Source: Actinomycetota bacterium
GTDB taxonomy: Bacteria; Actinomycetota; AC-67
Assembly (NCBI GenBank): GCA_040905475.1
Contig: JBBDRM010000139.1
Location: 34,450 to 73,025, forward strand
Length of the DNA stretch: 38,576 nucleotides
Direction: 5' to 3'
Under the pieces are notes generated by a model. It had not been told where the DNA came from, made no database searches, and saw nothing but the letters and a program-made list of their open reading frames with translations. Shown here in pieces: positions 4,306 through 13,587 of the stretch. The position numbers and the translations under genes are program-made. Positions within the stretch are counted from its first letter, which is position 1, and the number at the start of each line of letters is the position of its first letter.

Positions 4306-6374
4306 TCGCTGCACTCGCTTCCTTCGTCGCGTTCCTTTGGTTCTCGTCGCTGGCGTTCTTCCGCGATTCGCTGGTAGGACCTTTCCCGACGCCTGAATCG
4401 CTCTCCTTGATCTGGAACGCAGCCGCCGAGGGACTTCGGCGGTCGCAGACCGACGCAGCTCCGGTCCCCGCGACCACGTCTTTCCTCGTCTTGGCGGCGT
4501 TCGCGATATGGGCGACCGCCTGGCTGGCCGACGACGCGGCGAACAAGCTCCGACACCCGATGCTCGCGATCGGCGTGACGGTCCCGCTGTTCGTCTTGCC
4601 GGGGACCATATTGGAGGGCGACCGCCGTTGGTTCGACGCCGGCGCGTATCTCGCCGGAGCGATGTGGGTCCTCTTCAGCGACGAGCGGTTCCGACTCAGC
4701 CGTTGGGGCCGGGTGGTGGGTCTCGGCTCACCCGGCTGGCGGCCGGGCCTCGCCGCGCGCATCGGCGTCATCGCGATCCTCGTCGCCGTGGTGGGAACAC
4801 CGATCCTTCCGGGCTTCAGCGCGCCGCCGGGTTTGCGCGGCGCGACCGGAGGCGGCGATCGGGTGGCGCTGAACCCGCTGGTGTCGATCCGACCTCAGCT
4901 CAACAGCCGTGCGCTAACCGAGGTGATGACGGTGCGCTCAAGGATCGCGAGCTACTGGCGGCTAACCGCGCTGGACCGATTCGATGGGACGACATGGACC
5001 TCCGGCCCTCAGCGTCCGGAGCTCAAGCTCGGCGAGAGACAGATCGCCGCGCAAGGCACCTCGCCGCGCAGCACGCTGGTCACGCAGCAGTTCGAGATCC
5101 ACAACCTGTCGGGCCCGTGGGTACCTGCTGCGTTCGAGCCGGTCAGGGTCGAGGGGCTTCGTGGGGTTGGCGCCGACCCGACGACCCGCACCGTGATCAT
5201 CTCGAACGACATGCGGGGCGGCACCGACTACTCGGTCAGGAGTCGCATTCCGACGATGTCGTTCGAGGAGCTCGATCGCGCGCCGCGGACCTCGGAGGCT
5301 GCGTTGGCCCGATACCTATTGCTCCCGCCCACCGCCGAGATCGCTCGAGTTCAGGGGATCGCCGAACAGATCGTGGAGCGGGCCGACGCACGCGATGGGT
5401 CGCCGTTCCGCCAGGCGGTCGCCCTCCAGGATCACCTCCGGACCTTCGCCTACGACGAGGACGTCGCCCTCGCCCACAACATCGACGACATCGAGTCGTT
5501 CCTGGTGGACATCCGGCGCGGCTACTGCGAGCAGTTCGCGACGGCCATGGCGGTCATGGCCCGCACGCTCGGCCTGCCTTCGCGGGTGGCGATCGGTTTC
5601 GCCGTCGGGACCACCGGCGTGCAGCCGGACGAGTACGACGTCACGAGCCGGCAGGCCCACGCGTGGGTCGAGATCTGGATGTCGGGGTTCGGGTGGGTCA
5701 CGTTCGAGCCGACCCCACGCAGCGACGGCATGCTCGTGCCCCGCTACACGACACCCGCGTCGGCGCCCTCGAACCCTGCGACCTCACCCACTCCGTCAGC
5801 CGAGGAAAGCCCCGATGCGAGTGCGTCGCCGTCGGCCCCGGGCGCAGAGCGGTTCGACGAGACTCCCGGCGCGGGCTCCGGGGTGTCCGGGGGCAGGCGC
5901 CTCATCCAGGTCGGAACCCTCGCCGGCGTTCTCCTGATCCTAGCCCTGTTCGCCCTCCCGATCGCAGCTCGCGCCCGGAGGGTCGTTCGTTACCGCCGGG
6001 CGGGGACGGCGGAAGACAAGGTCTCGGCTCGCTATCTCGACTTCCTCGACTGGTGCGCCACGGTCGGGCTGGGTCGGGGACCCGGCGAGACACCGATGGA
6101 GCACGCCCGGCGCCTGGCAAACGCTTCCTCGGATGCGGGCTCGTCGCTCGACGGGCTCGCCCGCATCGGCACGGACGCGGTCTACGCCCCGCTCAACGGG
6201 ATCGAGCCCGCCGCGGCCGCGAAACTCTCCCGCGATGCCCGGCGCTCGATCTCGACGGGCCTGCCTCGGCGCGCGAGGGTGCTCGGCCGGGTCGGATGGG
6301 CCTGGTGGCGAACGGACCCCGAAGGCGGTGGGGCGCCGTGGAGCCGCATGCGGGCGGCTCGGATCGAACCGTAG
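4119..6374 (+). CDS. TgpA-like membrane transglutaminase (DUF3488/transglutaminase-core/DUF4129)
   Basis: Membrane-bound transglutaminase-like protease-fold protein of 751 residues. The N-terminus has several transmembrane helices (about 14-30, 36-54, 60-81, 121-137, 145-165, 175-186, 213-230). An extracytoplasmic transglutaminase core follows, with the triad visible as Cys470 (RRGYCEQF), His514 (RQAHAW) and acidic Glu530 in FEPTPR. A Ser/Pro/Thr-rich linker (about 545-590) leads to a last helix (about 597-618) and a cytoplasmic DUF4129-like tail. The ATG at 4119 has no strong ribosome site. It is kept because the first two helices are encoded between 4119 and 4305, inside the run-on tail of the DUF58 gene. 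Third gene of the moxR-DUF58-tgpA set; the substrate is unknown. Confidence 0.92.
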   Translation: MADPDRRTGLPSELGVAALVGAASLPLGRLFRTSEIGAVAIAASAGSTAVAWGLRRFRAPALIAALASFVAFLWFSSLAFFRDSLVGPFPTPESLSLIWNAAAEGLRRSQTDAAPVPATTSFLVLAAFAIWATAWLADDAANKLRHPMLAIGVTVPLFVLPGTILEGDRRWFDAGAYLAGAMWVLFSDERFRLSRWGRVVGLGSPGWRPGLAARIGVIAILVAVVGTPILPGFSAPPGLRGATGGGDRVALNPLVSIRPQLNSRALTEVMTVRSRIASYWRLTALDRFDGTTWTSGPQRPELKLGERQIAAQGTSPRSTLVTQQFEIHNLSGPWVPAAFEPVRVEGLRGVGADPTTRTVIISNDMRGGTDYSVRSRIPTMSFEELDRAPRTSEAALARYLLLPPTAEIARVQGIAEQIVERADARDGSPFRQAVALQDHLRTFAYDEDVALAHNIDDIESFLVDIRRGYCEQFATAMAVMARTLGLPSRVAIGFAVGTTGVQPDEYDVTSRQAHAWVEIWMSGFGWVTFEPTPRSDGMLVPRYTTPASAPSNPATSPTPSAEESPDASASPSAPGAERFDETPGAGSGVSGGRRLIQVGTLAGVLLILALFALPIAARARRVVRYRRAGTAEDKVSARYLDFLDWCATVGLGRGPGETPMEHARRLANASSDAGSSLDGLARIGTDAVYAPLNGIEPAAAAKLSRDARRSISTGLPRRARVLGRVGWAWWRTDPEGGGAPWSRMRAARIEP

Positions 6375-7517: not shown

Positions 7518-8297
7518 TCATCGCGCTCGGAACGTTGGTGCACGTTTCTCGAAACGTGCCATCACGGCTTCACGGAAGTCTTCGGACGCTAGCAGCCGCC
7601 GGTTGATCATGGCCTCCCGCTCGAGGCCGGCGATCAGCGGCACGTCGAAAGCGCCGGTCGCGAGACGCTTGGCCGCCGCGACGGCCAGCGGAGGGCCCGC
7701 GGAGAGCTCGCGGGCCCAGCCCATCGCCTCATCCAGCAAACGTTCCCTGGGAACGACACGGTTAACCAAGCCCCAGGAGAGCGCCTCATCGGCTCCAACC
7801 TTCCTTCCGGTCATAACGAGCTCTTTCGCCCTGCCGAGCCCGATGAGGCGAGGCAGACGCTGCGTGCCTCCCAGATCGGGGATGATCCCCCACCGGATCT
7901 CGTAGACGGCGAGCTCGGCGTCGTCACCGGCAACCCGGAGGTCGCAGGCCGTGGCCAGCTGGATCCCGCCGCCCAAGGCGAGCCCGCCCACGGCCGCGAT
8001 CGTTGGTTTCGAGATCGTTTCGTACACCGTGAAGCAGTTCTGCAACGCGGCGATGTCGAGCGCGAGCGGACTCCCGGCGCCGATGCCGTTCGCGAAGAGC
8101 GAGGTATCGAGGCCGCTGGAGAAGGCTCGCCCTTCTCCCGTGAGGACTACCGCGCGCACGTTCGGGTCGGCCTCTGCGCGCCCGGCCGCGTCGCGTACCC
8201 CGAAGAAGACGTCTTGGTCGATCGCGTTGAGCACCTCGGGCCGGTTGATCGTGACGAGGGCAACGGCACCGTCCACCTCGTAGAGAACCTTCGTCAT
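7518..8297 (-). CDS. Enoyl-CoA hydratase/isomerase (crotonase) family protein
   Basis: Crotonase-fold protein of 259 residues acting on an acyl-CoA thioester. The oxyanion-hole segments are present: GEGRAFSSGLD at about 54-64, and GGLALGGGIQLATACDLR around 100-117. The position that is Glu144 in rat enoyl-CoA hydratase is Gln here (GGGIQLA), while the second acidic residue is kept (YEIRWGIIPD). A simple hydratase reaction is therefore doubtful; an isomerase or other crotonase activity is possible. The ATG at 8297 has a GGAGG site 5 nt upstream and overlaps the dinB stop as ATGA, so the gene is translationally coupled to the polymerase operon, an unexpected partner for a lipid enzyme. Confidence 0.9.
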   Translation of the reverse strand: MTKVLYEVDGAVALVTINRPEVLNAIDQDVFFGVRDAAGRAEADPNVRAVVLTGEGRAFSSGLDTSLFANGIGAGSPLALDIAALQNCFTVYETISKPTIAAVGGLALGGGIQLATACDLRVAGDDAELAVYEIRWGIIPDLGGTQRLPRLIGLGRAKELVMTGRKVGADEALSWGLVNRVVPRERLLDEAMGWARELSAGPPLAVAAAKRLATGAFDVPLIAGLEREAMINRRLLASEDFREAVMARFEKRAPTFRAR

Positions 8298-9526
8298 GAC
8301 GTCCTCCCTTTCCGGGGTTGGTCGGGTCCGTCGCCTTGGCTCGGGCGACCGTGGACCGGCTTGCGTTCTGCGAGTGCAGCGCGATCGACGGCGTCGCCGC
8401 CGAATCGCCTGCGTAGCGTATCCATCGCACGGTCCGCGGTGCGCCAGCGGTCGGGCCGCTCTCCCATCCGAAGCTGCTCCGATATCCCGCCGGAGACGAG
8501 CCCCGTGGCCGCAACCCCGAGGAGTCGGATGCGCGGCCGCGCCAGGGAGAGCCGTCCGTAGAGGTCGTGCGCCGTCGCAAAGAGCTTCGCGGCCGCGTCC
8601 GTCGGCGTCTCGAGGGTCCGCGAGCGCGTGATGGTGCTGAAGTTGGCGAAGCGGACCTTGAGCGTGACGGTGCGCGCGGACAGCCCGGCGGCGCGAAGAC
8701 GGCCGGCAACCCGTTCTGCGAGTCGCAGGATCTCCCGCTTGATGTCCGCGAGGGCGTCCAGGTCGCGATCGAAGGTCTCCTCGGCCGAGACCTGCTTGGC
8801 AGGCTCGTGCGGGACGACGGAGCGGTCGTCGACGCCGCGGGCCAGGTCCTGGAAGTGGGCGGCCGGCCCCGGGCCGAGCGCACGCGCCAGGACGCCTGCG
8901 GGCAGTGCGAGCAGGTCCGCCACGGTTCGCACGCCGAGCCGGTCGAGCGACGCAGCGGTTTGCTCGCCTACGCCCCAGAGATCCTGAACCGGGAGCGGGT
9001 CGAGGAACGCGCGGATCCCGCCGGCGGGAACGACGACGACCCCACTGGGCTTCGCGTGCGCGCTCGCCAGCTTGGCGAGGAGCTTGTTCGGCGCGACGCC
9101 GACGGAGCAGTCCAGGTGCCGCTCGCTCCGGACGCGTTCCTTGATCCGATGGGCGATCTCCTCGGGTGAGCCGAACATCCGGCCTGCTCCCGTGACGTCG
9201 AGGAACGCCTCGTCGAGCGAGACCGGCTCCACGAGCGGCGTGAAGGAACCGAGCAGGGCCATCACGCGATCGGACTCCGCCTTGTATCGCTCGAAGTCCG
9301 GCGGCACGAACACCAGATCTGGACACAGGCGGCGCGCGCGGACGCTGGGCATCGCGGAGCGAACCCCGAACGCGCGAGCCTGGTACGAGGCGCTCATCAC
9401 CACCCCACGAGGGCCGGCTGCACCGACGGCGATCGGCTTGCCGGCAAGGGTCGGATCGTCCCGTTCCTCGACGGATGCGTAGAAGGCATCCATATCGACG
9501 TGGAGGATCGGCTCGTCCGGGACCAT
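8294..9526 (-). CDS. dinB: DNA polymerase IV (Y-family translesion polymerase)
   Basis: Translesion DNA polymerase of 410 residues. The palm catalytic motifs are intact: HVDMDAFYASVE near residues 9-20 and SLDEAFLD near residue 103. The helix-hairpin-helix thumb region (DLWGVGEQTAASLDRLGVRTVADL) and the little-finger domain with LKVRFANFSTITRS follow. The tail after about residue 360 is polar and may carry a clamp-binding segment, though none is obvious. The ATG at 9526 is 7 nt after the dnaE2 stop and has an AGGAG site that overlaps that stop; the longer open frame upstream is antisense or shadow. It is co-transcribed with dnaE2, which suggests joint action in damage tolerance. Confidence 0.95.
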   Translation of the reverse strand: MVPDEPILHVDMDAFYASVEERDDPTLAGKPIAVGAAGPRGVVMSASYQARAFGVRSAMPSVRARRLCPDLVFVPPDFERYKAESDRVMALLGSFTPLVEPVSLDEAFLDVTGAGRMFGSPEEIAHRIKERVRSERHLDCSVGVAPNKLLAKLASAHAKPSGVVVVPAGGIRAFLDPLPVQDLWGVGEQTAASLDRLGVRTVADLLALPAGVLARALGPGPAAHFQDLARGVDDRSVVPHEPAKQVSAEETFDRDLDALADIKREILRLAERVAGRLRAAGLSARTVTLKVRFANFSTITRSRTLETPTDAAAKLFATAHDLYGRLSLARPRIRLLGVAATGLVSGGISEQLRMGERPDRWRTADRAMDTLRRRFGGDAVDRAALAERKPVHGRPSQGDGPDQPRKGRTS

Positions 9527-9533
9527 CAGGCTC

Positions 9534-12500
9534 CTAGGCTCCGGCGGATCCTGAGCTCGCATGCCACAGCTTCCGCGGAGCGTCCTCGGTGGGCGCACGG
9601 GTCGGCAGCGGGCGCACGGCCGCGGGGCGCGGCCGTGCCGGCGACAACGGGGCCCGTTTCTGCTCCCGGGCGAGGCGACGCCGTTCGCGCTCGTAGGCCT
9701 CGATCTCCGCCACGCCCTCCTCCCACAACGCGGGGACGTCGAGCGTGCCATCCCGCTCCGCCCGCGCCAAGGCCGCGAGGTCCCAGGCGCGCTCGCAGTT
9801 GATCGACACGCCGCGCGCGCCGGTCTTGTGCAGCGTGCCCCGCGCGACGATCAGCCACGAGTGGAAGATCGTCCATGCGCAGTGCTCCTGCACGCTCTCG
9901 AACACCGTGACGTCGACGAGCCCGGTCGCGTCGTCGAGCGTCAGGAAGATGATCCGCTGCCCGGATCGAACAGCCGGTGTCTGCGATGCCACCTTCACTC
10001 CGGCGACCATAACCCGCGCCCCCTGCCGCCGCCCCCGCACGTCGGCGGCTCGCGTCACCCCGAGCCGCTCGATCAACCGATCGTAGAAGGACACCACATG
10101 CCGGCTGACGTCGAGCCCGGTGACCTCGAGCTCCGCCCGCACCCGCTCCGCCTCCGAGTACGGCCGCAACCCGAAGGAGAGGAACGGCTCCTCCACTGCG
10201 AACTCCACCTGAGTCTTCTCCGGCTTGGGCGCCGCCTTCTCCCACAAGTCCTTCACCTGAAGGAGCAGATCCCGCCGCCCTCCGAACCCATCGAGCGCCC
10301 CCACATGGATGAGGTTCTCCACCGTCGGCCTCGAAAGCTTCGTCCGCCGGCACAGATCGACCAGACCGCCGTACGGCCGGGTCCGGTTGCTCAAGATCGA
10401 CTCGATCTCCCCCGCCGAGATCCCGTCGACGTGCATGAACCCGATCCGCACGCTCAGCTCGTGGTCGGGCGCTGCGCTGTACTCGACGGTGTACTCTCGC
10501 GCGCTGGCGTTGATGTCGAGCGGCAAGATCGGCACCTGCTCGTGCCGTGCGTCGTCGAGGATCGCCCTACGCGGATACATCCCCGGCTCGTGCGTGAGTA
10601 CCCCCGCGTAGAAGGCCGCCGGATGGTTCGCCTTGAGCCAGGCGGATTGGTACGTCGGGACCGCGAAGGCTGCCGCGTGCGCCTTGCAGAACCCGAACGC
10701 CGCGAAGGAGGCGACCTCGTGCCAGACCGGATCGATCTCGTTGCGAAGCCAGCCGCGCTCGAGGCCGCGCTCGTAGAACCAGTCTTTGATGGCATCGATC
10801 TTGTCCTCGTCGGAGAGCTCGCGGCGAACCTGGTCTGCGTATCCAAGGTCGACGCCGGTGACGGCGGAGATCGCGAGCATCACTTGCTCGTGGAAGACGA
10901 TCACGCCGAACGACTCCTGCAGGAAGGCGCGCATGGCCGGGTGGGAGTAGACGGGGTTGGCGAAGCCGTGCCGGCGGTTCAGGTACGGGCCGATCATGTC
11001 GCTTTGGACGGGACCCGGCCGGAACAGCGAGATGTCGATGATCAGGTCTCGCCACCACGTCGGCTGGAACTTGCCGAGCAGCTCACGCTGGCCCGGAGAT
11101 TCGATCTGGAAGCAGCCGAGCGTACGCGAGGCGCGGATCAGCGCGAAGGTGCCGTCGTCGTCGCGCGGGATCTGATCGAGGTCGACGCGCTCCCCCGTCG
11201 TGCGCTCGATCTCGCCTATCGCATGCGTCATCGTGGAGAGCATCCGGATACCGATCACGTCGAGCTTGAGGAGGCCGAGCGCCTCGACGTCGTGCTTGTC
11301 GAACTGGATCATCCGGAAACCGTTCGCCGATCGCTCGAGCGGCGAACGCGTCACGAGGTCGTCGGGCGCGATGAGTATCCCCGAGGGATGCAGCGCCATG
11401 TGGCGCGGGAACGAGTCGAGGCGCTCGGCGACCGAGAACAGCAGATCCAGCTGCCCACGAGCGAGGCTCGTGCGTTTCAGCTCCGGGAGATGCTCGAGTG
11501 CGGCGCGGATCTCGCCGGCGTTGGTGTGCGGGAAGGACTTCGCAACGAGGTCGACCTCGCCCTCGGGGTAGCCGAGCGCCTTGCCGACCTCGCGGATCGC
11601 GCCGCGCGCGCGGTAGGTGTCGACCATCGCGACGCACGCGACCTGGTTCTCGGTGAACGAGGAAAGGATGTCGGTGTAGACGTCCTCTCGGCGGGCGCTC
11701 TCGACGTCGAGGTCCACGTCGGGCAGCTCGTTGCGGTATGGGTTCACGAAGCGCTCGAAGAGCAAGTGATGCTCGAGCGGGTCGACCTCGCTGACGCCGG
11801 TGAGGTAACAGACGAGGCTCCCCGCCGCCGAGCCACGGCACGCGACCCGGATGCGTTTGGCTTTGATGCGCTCGACGATGTCGGCGACGGTCAAGAAGTA
11901 GCCGGCGAAGCCGAGCTTCGCGATCATCGCGAGTTCGGAGTCGATCCGGTCGCGCAGCACCTTGTCCGGCTCCAGGCCGCGGCGGGCGACGCCGTCCCAG
12001 CAGCGCCGCGCGAGCAACGAGTTCGCGGAGACGCCGCGCGGGAGCGGGTAGTGCGGGAGATGGAGCTGCCCGAGGCCGATGTCGGCTTCGCACGACTCGG
12101 CGATCCGTGCGGCGTTCGCGATCACGTCCGGACGACTTCGGAAGAGGACCGTCATCTCCCGCGGGGATTTCAGGTAGGCCTCGGCGTTGGTGTTGTCGCG
12201 ATGATGCGCGGCGAGCGGCACGAGCTTGCGCATCGCGTCGAGTGTGTCGGCGAGGAACGCGTCGGCCGGCGCGAGCGTTCGCGCGCCGTTGGTCGCCACC
12301 GCCGGGATGCGGCGGGCGTCGGCGAGATGGAGCAGACGCTGCACCTCGAGCCCCGAGCCCGGCTCGAGCCAGTTGCGCACCTCTATAGAGAGGAGTCGCC
12401 CGAACACCTCGAGCCAGGGGCGCGTGGCCGTGTCGGCGTCGTCGAGGCGCCCCGCGATGGCGAGGCGGCCGGCTTCCGAATCGGGGCCGAGCATCGCGAA

Positions 12501-12878
12501 CAGGCCGGCAGCGTGCTCGGCGATGTCTTCGAAGGAGTCGCATGGGTCGCCGCGCTCGCCGCGCATGTGCGCCGCGGTGAGGATCCGGCACAGGTTCGTG
12601 TACCCGTCCTGCGTCCGCGCGAGGAGCGTGACCGTCTGTCGGTTACCCGGTTGCGCGGTTTCGACGGTAAGGCGCGTCCCGAAGATCGGCTTCACGCCGG
12701 CGATCCCGCACGCTTGCGCGAACCGGACCGCGCCGTAGAGGCCGTTCGTGTCGGTGATCGCGACCGCGTCCATGCCGAGGTGGCGCGCGGCCGCGGCGAG
12801 CTCTTGGGGCCGGATCGCACCCTCGCGCAGCGAGTAGGTCGTCCGGACCGACAGATGCGCGAACCGCGCGCCCTTCAT
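9534..12878 (-). CDS. dnaE2: Error-prone DNA polymerase III alpha subunit, DnaE2/ImuC type
   Basis: C-family polymerase of 1114 residues. The N-terminal PHP domain starts HLSVRTTYSLREGAI, where the usual His-X-His metal pair is not kept. The polymerase core has the CRGSAAGSLVCYL motif, catalytic aspartates in PDVDLDVE, and a third in LLKLDVIGIRML. The segment GFCKAHAAAFAVPTYQSAWLK and the following GMYPRRAILDDAR are typical of DnaE2 rather than replicative DnaE. An OB-fold (about residues 930-1010) ends the protein. It begins 57 nt from the divergent tRNA-like gene. No ImuA or ImuB gene is visible; dinB follows directly instead. Expected to be damage-inducible, but no perfect LexA box lies directly upstream, only a GTTCG half-site. 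Confidence 0.92.
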   Translation of the reverse strand: MKGARFAHLSVRTTYSLREGAIRPQELAAAARHLGMDAVAITDTNGLYGAVRFAQACGIAGVKPIFGTRLTVETAQPGNRQTVTLLARTQDGYTNLCRILTAAHMRGERGDPCDSFEDIAEHAAGLFAMLGPDSEAGRLAIAGRLDDADTATRPWLEVFGRLLSIEVRNWLEPGSGLEVQRLLHLADARRIPAVATNGARTLAPADAFLADTLDAMRKLVPLAAHHRDNTNAEAYLKSPREMTVLFRSRPDVIANAARIAESCEADIGLGQLHLPHYPLPRGVSANSLLARRCWDGVARRGLEPDKVLRDRIDSELAMIAKLGFAGYFLTVADIVERIKAKRIRVACRGSAAGSLVCYLTGVSEVDPLEHHLLFERFVNPYRNELPDVDLDVESARREDVYTDILSSFTENQVACVAMVDTYRARGAIREVGKALGYPEGEVDLVAKSFPHTNAGEIRAALEHLPELKRTSLARGQLDLLFSVAERLDSFPRHMALHPSGILIAPDDLVTRSPLERSANGFRMIQFDKHDVEALGLLKLDVIGIRMLSTMTHAIGEIERTTGERVDLDQIPRDDDGTFALIRASRTLGCFQIESPGQRELLGKFQPTWWRDLIIDISLFRPGPVQSDMIGPYLNRRHGFANPVYSHPAMRAFLQESFGVIVFHEQVMLAISAVTGVDLGYADQVRRELSDEDKIDAIKDWFYERGLERGWLRNEIDPVWHEVASFAAFGFCKAHAAAFAVPTYQSAWLKANHPAAFYAGVLTHEPGMYPRRAILDDARHEQVPILPLDINASAREYTVEYSAAPDHELSVRIGFMHVDGISAGEIESILSNRTRPYGGLVDLCRRTKLSRPTVENLIHVGALDGFGGRRDLLLQVKDLWEKAAPKPEKTQVEFAVEEPFLSFGLRPYSEAERVRAELEVTGLDVSRHVVSFYDRLIERLGVTRAADVRGRRQGARVMVAGVKVASQTPAVRSGQRIIFLTLDDATGLVDVTVFESVQEHCAWTIFHSWLIVARGTLHKTGARGVSINCERAWDLAALARAERDGTLDVPALWEEGVAEIEAYERERRRLAREQKRAPLSPARPRPAAVRPLPTRAPTEDAPRKLWHASSGSAGA

Positions 12879-12894
12879 CGCGATTCACGCGAAC

Positions 12895-12922
12895 TTGCTA
12901 GCACACGTTGAGCCGATACGGT
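12895..12922 (+). promoter_or_regulatory. Candidate promoter of the tRNA-like transcript
   Basis: TTGCTA (12895-12900) and TACGGT (12917-12922) with a 16-nt spacer. Transcription would start near 12929, 6 nt before the mature tRNA 5' end. Both boxes are imperfect, so this is a moderate prediction. Confidence 0.4.
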
Positions 12923-12934
12923 CGCTGAGGCGGT

Positions 12935-13007
12935 GGGCCCGTGGTGTAAAGGACAGCACACGACTCTGACTAAGTTCGAGGTGGCGGTTCGAATCCGCCC
13001 GGGCCCA
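12935..13007 (+). tRNA. tRNA-like gene, anticodon read as GAC (Val) but atypical
   Basis: A 73-nt cloverleaf can be drawn. The acceptor stem is GGGCCCG/CGGGCCC (7 perfect pairs), the D arm is GTGT/GCAC with an 8-nt loop, the T arm is GGCGG-TTCGAAT-CCGCC (perfect), and the discriminator is A. CCA is not encoded. The D arm is of the bacterial tRNA-Gln type. With the anticodon loop set to seven bases (CTGACTA), the anticodon is GAC, which would be valine. However, position 37 is T, the anticodon stem has a C-C mismatch at its base (or a bulged T), and CTG lies one base away from the right place. It may be a functional but divergent tRNA, a decayed tRNA-Gln, or a tRNA-like domain of a larger RNA. 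Confidence 0.65.
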
Positions 13008-13146
13008 CCCCTCCTATCGAGGAGGGACCCCCGCCGGGACGGCCAACCAGAGATAACCGTCCCGCCATCCGGCACTTGACCAGTAGCCTTCCGCGAGCGA
13101 GGATAGACGTGCTTAGTCAGAGTCGCGTGTCCGATACACCACGGGC
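12937..13146. repeat. Imperfect inverted repeat: tRNA 5' half facing a copy of itself
   Basis: The left arm is the 5' half of the tRNA-like gene and the right arm is its reverse complement. Matching blocks are 12937-12948 with 13135-13146 (12 nt), 12951-12955 with 13128-13132 (5 nt), and 12961-12974 with 13112-13125 (14 nt), separated by two mismatches and a short indel. The right copy has D-arm and anticodon sequence but no T arm or 3' acceptor strand, so it is not a second tRNA. A transcript running through the locus could fold the two arms together into about 31 pairs, in competition with the cloverleaf. Confidence 0.85.
13009..13063 (+). other. Two hairpins directly after the tRNA-like gene
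   Basis: CCCTCCT (13009-13015) pairs with AGGAGGG (13020-13026) around an ATCG loop, starting two bases after the tRNA discriminator. GGGACGG (13036-13042) pairs with CCGTCCC (13057-13063) around a 14-nt loop. Neither is followed by a T tract, so they look like structural or processing elements rather than classical terminators. Confidence 0.6.
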
Positions 13147-13152
13147 ATGAAG

Positions 13153-13184
13153 GAGGAGCGGGGACACCCGCTCCTCTTGTTTTT
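13153..13184 (+). terminator. Strong intrinsic terminator of the tRNA-like transcript
   Basis: A perfect 10-bp stem, GAGGAGCGGG (13153-13162) with CCCGCTCCTC (13167-13176), loop GACA, followed by TTGTTTTT. The T tract is on the plus strand only, so it ends transcription from the tRNA side. It lies 7 nt after the inverted half-tRNA, which places that copy inside the same transcript of about 250 nt. Confidence 0.85.
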
Positions 13185-13204
13185 CCGGCGGCGCGCACAA
13201 CGCG

Positions 13205-13498
13205 TCAGTCCCATACGCGGAAGAGGCTCCACGTGCCTTTGCGGAGATCGTGGCTCAGCTCGTACGTGCCCGGCGGCACACCCTTATTTTCAGATTGTGC
13301 GTCGACGCGCCAGATCTCGCGCGCGTCTCCTCTCGCCCACGGCTGCGCCACGTCTCCCGTGGGTTCCCACCACCCCGTCGCCTCGCGCCAGCGACACAGA
13401 ACCTGCCGGACGTAGTAGCGCTTGCCGCGCCACCAGAACGCCTCGATCGTTCCCTCGGGCGCTTCGACGTCGGCGGGTTCCTCGTAGCGTTTCGACAT
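13205..13498 (-). CDS. DUF6504 family protein
   Basis: Small protein of 97 residues with the DUF6504 pattern: an aromatic and basic core (EAFWWRGKRYYVRQVLCRWRE at about 19-39), a WW pair, a central REIWRVDA strand, and a C-terminal YELSHDL...WSLFRVWD. From general knowledge, actinobacterial DUF6504 genes are often found next to Y-family or DnaE2-type polymerases, and here dnaE2-dinB lies just downstream on the same strand. The start has a GGTGG site. A near-ideal SOS box sits about 70 bp upstream. A damage-response role is likely; the molecular function is unknown. Confidence 0.85.
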   Translation of the reverse strand: MSKRYEEPADVEAPEGTIEAFWWRGKRYYVRQVLCRWREATGWWEPTGDVAQPWARGDAREIWRVDAQSENKGVPPGTYELSHDLRKGTWSLFRVWD

Positions 13499-13567: not shown

Positions 13568-13587
13568 ACTCGAACGTATGTTCGAGT
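13568..13587. promoter_or_regulatory. LexA-type SOS box (TCGAAC-N4-GTTCGA)
   Basis: A perfect 8-bp dyad, ACTCGAAC-GTAT-GTTCGAGT. Its core at 13570-13585 matches the actinobacterial/Gram-positive SOS consensus exactly. It lies between the divergent DUF6504 gene (start 70 bp away) and the ABC exporter gene (172 bp away). The distance and the polymerase context favour control of DUF6504. An effect on the exporter is possible, because TATGTT inside the box could serve as a plus-strand -10. Confidence 0.8.

Follow-up and report, generated by a model that had tools for sequence, protein, structure and literature searches.

A candidate two-state RNA of Actinomycetota combining a tRNA-like domain with an antisense copy of its own 5′ half

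Genetic organization of the locus

The window (i.e. the whole 38,576-nt stretch of DNA analyzed, from the genome designated G000) contains an operon composed of a DUF6504 gene (13205–13498, minus strand), a gene encoding a dnaE2-type DNA polymerase III alpha subunit (9534–12878, minus strand) and, following these two, an imuB-like gene (8294–9751). An exact SOS (LexA-type) box is located upstream of the operon (13570–13585), and a box of this form precedes the DUF6504/dnaE2 pair in all five family members. In three relatives (G001, G003 and G004), DUF6504 directly abuts dnaE2 and the junction is without the element described below, which in G000 is inserted upstream of dnaE2, on the opposite strand. 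Since this junction is empty in the three relatives, the element was either gained in G000 and in a second genome carrying it at the same site (G002), or lost elsewhere.

The copy present in the window (E1) occupies positions 12932–13184, and all of its features lie on the plus strand. It is preceded by a promoter-like region (12895–12922), in which TTGCTA (12895–12900) and TACGGT (12917–12922) are separated by a 16-nt spacer; a generic sigma-70 scan did not detect this region. The tRNA-like domain (12932–13009) comprises a 7-bp acceptor stem, a D arm, an anticodon arm (GAC), a T arm and A73, and CCA is not encoded. A GGU leader pairs with the 3′ ACC, which adds 3 bp and lengthens the acceptor helix to 10 bp. 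Immediately 3′ of this helix lies hairpin H1 (13009–13026), whose stem sequence differs among the copies with pairing retained. It is followed by hairpin H2 (13033–13078), with a conserved loop (GGGATA type) and the 3′ flank GCCA..GGCACTTG, and by a variable spacer (13079–13111). The antisense arm (13112–13146) is complementary to the element's own acceptor 5′ strand, D-stem 5′ strand, anticodon stem 5′ strand and anticodon loop. The element ends with an intrinsic terminator (13151–13184), composed of a 12-bp stem (13151–13178) and a GTTTTT U tract.

An earlier note on this DNA had described a cloverleaf, two hairpins, an inverted 5′ half of the tRNA and a terminator, and this layout was confirmed from the sequence, Rfam, ARAGORN and an inverted-repeat search; the terminator and its T tract were also borne out, but the stem is longer than the 10 bp given there. 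The cloverleaf likewise held up under a covariance model, as the Rfam tRNA model scored 12935–13007 at 51.9 bits (E = 1.8e-08). ARAGORN predicted tRNA-Val(gac) at 12934–13010, and the inverted repeats pair 12937–12955 with 13128–13146 (89%) and 12957–12974 with 13112–13129 (94%). In agreement with the earlier view that the layout falls outside the standard RNA classes, a search of Rfam 15 revealed no family besides tRNA (RF00005, gathering score) that covers the element, and neither H1 nor H2 matched a known RNA in this database. H2 faintly resembles the B12 box, but this lead was dropped, being without any Rfam support.

The fold predicted for 12930–13190 has an energy of −140.1 kcal/mol (z = −8.5 vs. 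200 dinucleotide shuffles), and the energy of the duplex between the 5′ half of E1 and its downstream region is also distinct from that of 300 mononucleotide shuffles (z = −7.5). When 38 tRNAs were scored (33 canonical tRNAs of the window's genome and the five elements found in this study), the longest exact downstream complement was 10 nt or less for the canonical tRNAs vs. 11–16 nt for the elements. For the other four copies (E2–E5) taken singly, the z of the duplex energy is only −3.8 to −1.2, and their significance therefore depends on comparison between copies.

Copies of the element and their distribution

Five full copies (E1–E5) and one remnant were identified in three genera of a small class of Actinomycetota. 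DNA searches revealed a second copy in the window's genome (E2, contig C116), two tandem full copies accompanied by the remnant in G002 (E3 and E4) and a single copy in G001 (E5); G001 and G002 represent two other genera of the same family as G000. In the remnant (contig C22, L016 4889–4950), the first ~14–16 nt of the tRNA head are joined to the terminal portion of the antisense arm and a complete terminator, which is the shape expected for a putative deletion across the hairpin. Cross-contamination is excluded, since the copies are only 70–80% identical.

A covariance model (R1) built from the acceptor 3′ strand and the two hairpins recovered exactly the five copies, at 93–99 bits with E-values calibrated only roughly, and no others in 397 genomes of the phylum, which were scanned with stricter filters. 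The element is present in three of the five genomes of the class that were covered; the remaining two are also the drafts of lowest completeness (82% and 62%). Among named genomes, a degenerate H2 pattern was matched by the Actinomycetota MAG JAIVGO010000017 (corresponding to G001) and, twice, by JACQXY010000043 (G002), as well as by presumed chance matches. The matches in Opitutus, Kiloniellales, Flavobacterium, Fructobacillus and Andreprevotia were assigned to chance, as their covariance model scores are weak or absent and no tRNA-like head is found there. JACQXY010000043 (L059) is titled “Acidobacteria bacterium”; its kinship and the common dnaE2 locus place G002 among the Actinomycetota MAGs of the family.

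Comparison of E2 and E5 revealed 78% identity over 273 alignment columns, from the −10 box through the terminator, and unrelated flanks. Since the similarity of copies at unrelated sites stops at the promoter-like box and at the terminator, the element is a freestanding unit. The −10 box (TACCGT, TACCAT or TACGGT), followed by CGC, is retained in all five copies, and its end is separated from a conserved GGUGGG by 9–10 nt in each of them. TGACTC-16-TACCGT occurs in both E2 and E5, at sites that are otherwise unrelated, and the −10-type box may well have promoter activity. Terminator hairpins are likewise present in all five copies. Besides the acceptor strands, H2 is the best conserved part of the element (mean pairwise identity of 82%, vs. 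35% in the adjoining spacer).

E1, E3 and E4 are all located between DUF6504 and dnaE2, in the orientation opposite to that of the SOS operon. Near E2 and E5, a search for exact SOS boxes was negative, the proteins encoded next to these two copies have no family in common, and G001 and G002 lack an ortholog of a LiaF-like neighbor of E2. No protein partner or neighbor gene common to the copies was found, and a DnaE2-based scan of genome contigs gave no match. RtcB was rejected as a specific partner: all five genomes of the class encode it, whether or not they carry the element. Three near-identical tandem copies of a ~65-bp unit (GTTCGACCGGGGGGCTACCGCTCCGCTCCCTGAGCCCCCCGGACCCCC...) in the region of the DUF6504 gene of G002 (L016, about 5650–5795) appear to interrupt or extend this gene.

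Covariation in the two predicted folds

Positions 25–38 of the tRNA-like domains were compared with the arms in an alignment anchored on anticodon-loop positions 32–34. When each arm was set against its own tRNA, 62 of 70 cells were paired over the five copies, vs. only 20–27 of 70 when the arm was slid by 1–4 positions. The true assignment of arms to tRNAs was the best among 120 permutations (the runner-up, at 60, swaps the similar E1 and E4), and the duplex energy of the anticodon segment was best with the own arm in all five rows. The anticodon stem-loops differ between the copies and each arm complements its own, the duplex pairs with two-sided changes including positions 11, 27, 28, 29, 31, 33, 35, 36 and 37.

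The cloverleaf is also well paired (115 of 120 cells over five copies) and nine of its pairs show two-sided changes: 11:24, four pairs of the anticodon stem and four of the T stem. Thus, tRNA positions 11, 27, 28, 29 and 31 covary with both their cloverleaf partner and their arm partner. The five copies come from three draft genomes and some substitutions are common by descent, so that the independent events are fewer than the cells. Double covariation of this kind is the signature of a two-state RNA and, as judged from the aligned copies, the element would have two mutually exclusive folds, each with covariation of its own, as required of a bistable switch.

The earlier proposal that one transcript could form either a cloverleaf or a tRNA:anti-tRNA duplex is therefore strongly supported by coordinated changes in five copies; compensatory changes in the arm (13112–13146), which the earlier note had suggested seeking in related genomes, were indeed found, the arms tracking their own tRNAs. 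A scar of an old rearrangement, one of the meanings it had considered, has to be rejected, since the four further full copies retain the arm, H1, H2 and the terminator. The pattern is also not predicted by a simple inverted scar or by templated correction of a palindrome: the T-stem strands and the 3′ strands of the anticodon stem are not part of the repeat, and the arms remain imperfect at the D loop in every copy.

Minimum-energy folding of successive prefixes, which is not a kinetic simulation, predicted for each of the five copies an acceptor helix that gives way to the arm duplex once the arm has been synthesized; some intermediate prefixes of E2 contain neither the acceptor helix nor the full duplex. 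Since the duplex is predicted only after synthesis of the arm, the cloverleaf would have a transcription window of ~100 nt for binding or processing. Comparison of the copies shows that discrete units exist and that both predicted folds are maintained by coordinated changes, with the acceptor helix as the predicted fold before the arm.

The energies themselves could be taken to mean that the duplex is the sole functional state, and the cloverleaf a vestige of the tRNA ancestral to a long hairpin RNA: the full fold lies 14–26 kcal/mol below the cloverleaf-constrained fold in the five copies, and when the tRNA domain is folded alone and without constraint, only that of E4 has the exact cloverleaf as its minimum-energy structure. 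However, the cloverleaf stems covary independently, including T-stem pairs and anticodon 3′ strands outside the arm duplex. Moreover, T8, A14, G18G19, the T loop and A73 are retained, and the two copies of the window's genome score 52–59 bits with the Rfam tRNA model. We consider a duplex-only RNA unlikely.

An unlikely explanation, too, is that the units are small non-autonomous mobile elements (MITE-like or similar to tRNA-derived SINEs), in which the complementarity of the arm results from hairpin-templated repair and not from RNA function. Units at unrelated sites, the genome with tandem copies and a remnant deleted between the arms, and the empty sites in three relatives would all fit such an origin. 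Inspection of the flanks, by eye only, revealed no recognizable target-site duplication. Against this explanation, there are only one or two full copies per genome, and the inverted repeats do not bound the unit, as the terminator and the promoter-like box are situated outside the arms. Templated repair would also erase the imperfections at the D loop and the 3′ D-stem strand, which are largely unpaired in all copies, and it leaves aside both the covariation in T-stem and anticodon 3′ strands beyond the inverted repeat and the conservation of H2, which far exceeds that of the spacer. Phage or plasmid cargo and an attachment site were rejected as well: a distant blastn search of phages and plasmids and a search of IMG/VR with two patterns gave no match to the element, and at an attachment site the 3′ end of the tRNA would be repeated directly, whereas here the 5′ half is repeated in inverted orientation.

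Possible role of the element and its relation to known systems

Each of the five heads has a 7/5 acceptor/T geometry, lengthened by 3 bp in which the discriminator base takes part, and the anticodons of the elements are GAC, GCA and GAG. In the window's genome, canonical Val(GAC), Cys(GCA) and Leu(GAG) tRNAs are present elsewhere; E2 was therefore rejected as the sole tRNA-Cys. U33 and a 7-nt anticodon loop, expected of elongator tRNAs, do not occur in all members (C33 in E4, an enlarged loop in E3), and U37 in E1 is a further feature unfavorable for translation. The existence of canonical isoacceptors, the deviations in E4 and E3 and, in every copy, the pairing of the 3′ ACC with the GGU leader suggest that the head imitates a tRNA and probably does not serve in translation. 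The structure fits the self-sequestering tRNA considered previously, except that its head is probably not a working tRNA. As to the tRNA complement of the draft genome G000, tRNA-Ile(GAT) was not found among its 49 tRNA hits, and a CAT-anticodon tRNA, possibly tRNA-Ile2, has the same acceptor as the element (GGGCCCG/CGGGCCC).

A working, regulated isoacceptor tRNA, freed from its self-antisense trailer under some condition, would account for the good tRNA scores, the canonical geometry and the readable anticodons. Such a tRNA would nevertheless be redundant with the canonical ones and burdened by the anticodon-loop deviations and the paired ACC described above. The amino acid implied by the anticodon also varies among the copies while A73 is constant, and A73 is a poor fit for Cys (CysRS). 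This reading is improbable. Equally improbable is that the arm acts in trans on other RNAs, such as canonical tRNAs or tRNA halves, with pairing to its own head as the off state. An arm followed by a terminator does resemble the layout of an sRNA, and tRNA fragments are real signals in bacteria (PMC7790460), but in every case the pairing of an arm with its own head is more stable than that with any of the canonical tRNAs identified in the window's genome (−61.5 vs. −39.8 for E1; the margin is small for E2, −48.4 vs. −46.2). That a regular additional tRNA gene adjoins a neutral inverted duplication or an assembly artefact, a view conceivable only for a single genome, can hardly be reconciled with five copies of one layout and coordinated changes in three separate genomes, which also bear out the earlier argument against an assembly chimera.

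The reading that we favor, at roughly even chances, is that of a freestanding small RNA gene encoding a two-state RNA that acts as a self-limiting tRNA mimic or decoy. The nascent 5′ end would fold into a tRNA cloverleaf closed by the 10-bp acceptor helix. The antisense arm would appear ~105 nt later, after H1, the conserved H2 and the spacer, and would invade the cloverleaf by pairing with its 5′ half over the stretch that begins at the acceptor and includes the anticodon loop. The predicted product is a long bulged hairpin enclosing H1, H2 and, in most copies, also the T arm. We infer that the cloverleaf serves as a mimic or decoy for a tRNA-binding, tRNA-modifying or tRNA-cutting factor. 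The arm would then limit its lifetime unless the factor captures it, and the resulting duplex would be an appropriate substrate for RNase III. A role in timing, or in the binding of a ligand or protein, is probable for the conserved H2.

The combination of a variable anticodon arm with a constant body suggests that the partners recognize the anticodon arm, and the different anticodon loops of the copies would be directed to different partners. That E1, E3 and E4 are located in an SOS operon is suggestive of a decoy for a DNA-damage anticodon nuclease, but E2 and E5 are without an exact SOS box nearby. More tentatively, and with considerable doubt, the elements may represent a hitherto undescribed class of bacterial noncoding RNAs, in which a tRNA mimic contains an antisense of its own 5′ half and functions as a sensor or decoy for enzymes binding or cutting the anticodon arm (e.g. 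nucleases released upon DNA damage). Capture or cutting would decide between the mimic and the self-inactivated duplex, and the anticodon loop would set the specificity. If the switch works in cells, it would constitute a cis-controlled tRNA mimic, dosing tRNA-like activity in time, and would open to test the identity of the factor reading the mimic, the reason for the variability of the anticodon loop and that for the position of the element in an SOS polymerase operon. The element is also a caution that some “extra tRNAs” annotated in genomes are not tRNAs.

Precursors are known in which a tRNA is followed by a 3′ trailer acting as a regulatory RNA; the trailer of the element differs in being antisense to its own tRNA and covarying with it. 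The bacterial Y RNA YrlA is likewise a noncoding RNA with a tRNA-like domain, and its 5′ and 3′ ends pair in a long stem, as do those of the element. However, the stem of YrlA carries the tRNA-like domain, whereas that of the element consumes it. The tRNA-like domain of YrlA has been proposed as a competitive inhibitor of a DNA-damage-induced anticodon nuclease (PMC7790460), which is the published idea closest to the role suggested for the element. Identity with Y RNA was rejected, since there is no Rfam match except tRNA and a Ro60/TROVE gene was found in none of the five genomes of the class (the positive control was found in Deinobacterium).

T-box riboswitches also pair with an anticodon and adopt two mutually exclusive folds, but they read a separate tRNA and control a downstream gene by a terminator/antiterminator (PMC4919913). 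The element instead contains its tRNA in cis, has a terminator that is separate from the switch and is not followed by a gene on its strand. A T-box was rejected, as the Rfam T-box covariance model gave no match up to E = 5 and the next gene (DUF6504) is on the opposite strand. No tmRNA match was obtained with ARAGORN or Rfam. Like the element, allo-tRNAs are additional tRNA-like genes whose anticodons vary, and some are unsuited to translation; their acceptor/T stems are 8/4 or 9/3, in contrast to 7/5 in all five copies of the element, and an antisense arm is not described for them (PMC7609411). Viral tRNA-like structures mimic tRNA to engage tRNA-handling factors (PMC4810234). The element differs from these in being cellular and 5′-terminal, in its canonical cloverleaf sequence and in its built-in antisense arm.

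To our knowledge, based on a search of the open PMC literature, no known RNA class encodes a tRNA fold and its co-evolving antisense in one transcript. The ingredients (tRNA mimicry, two-state RNAs and antisense pairing) are known and it is their combination that is new, although the element could alternatively be filed as a variant of bistable RNA.
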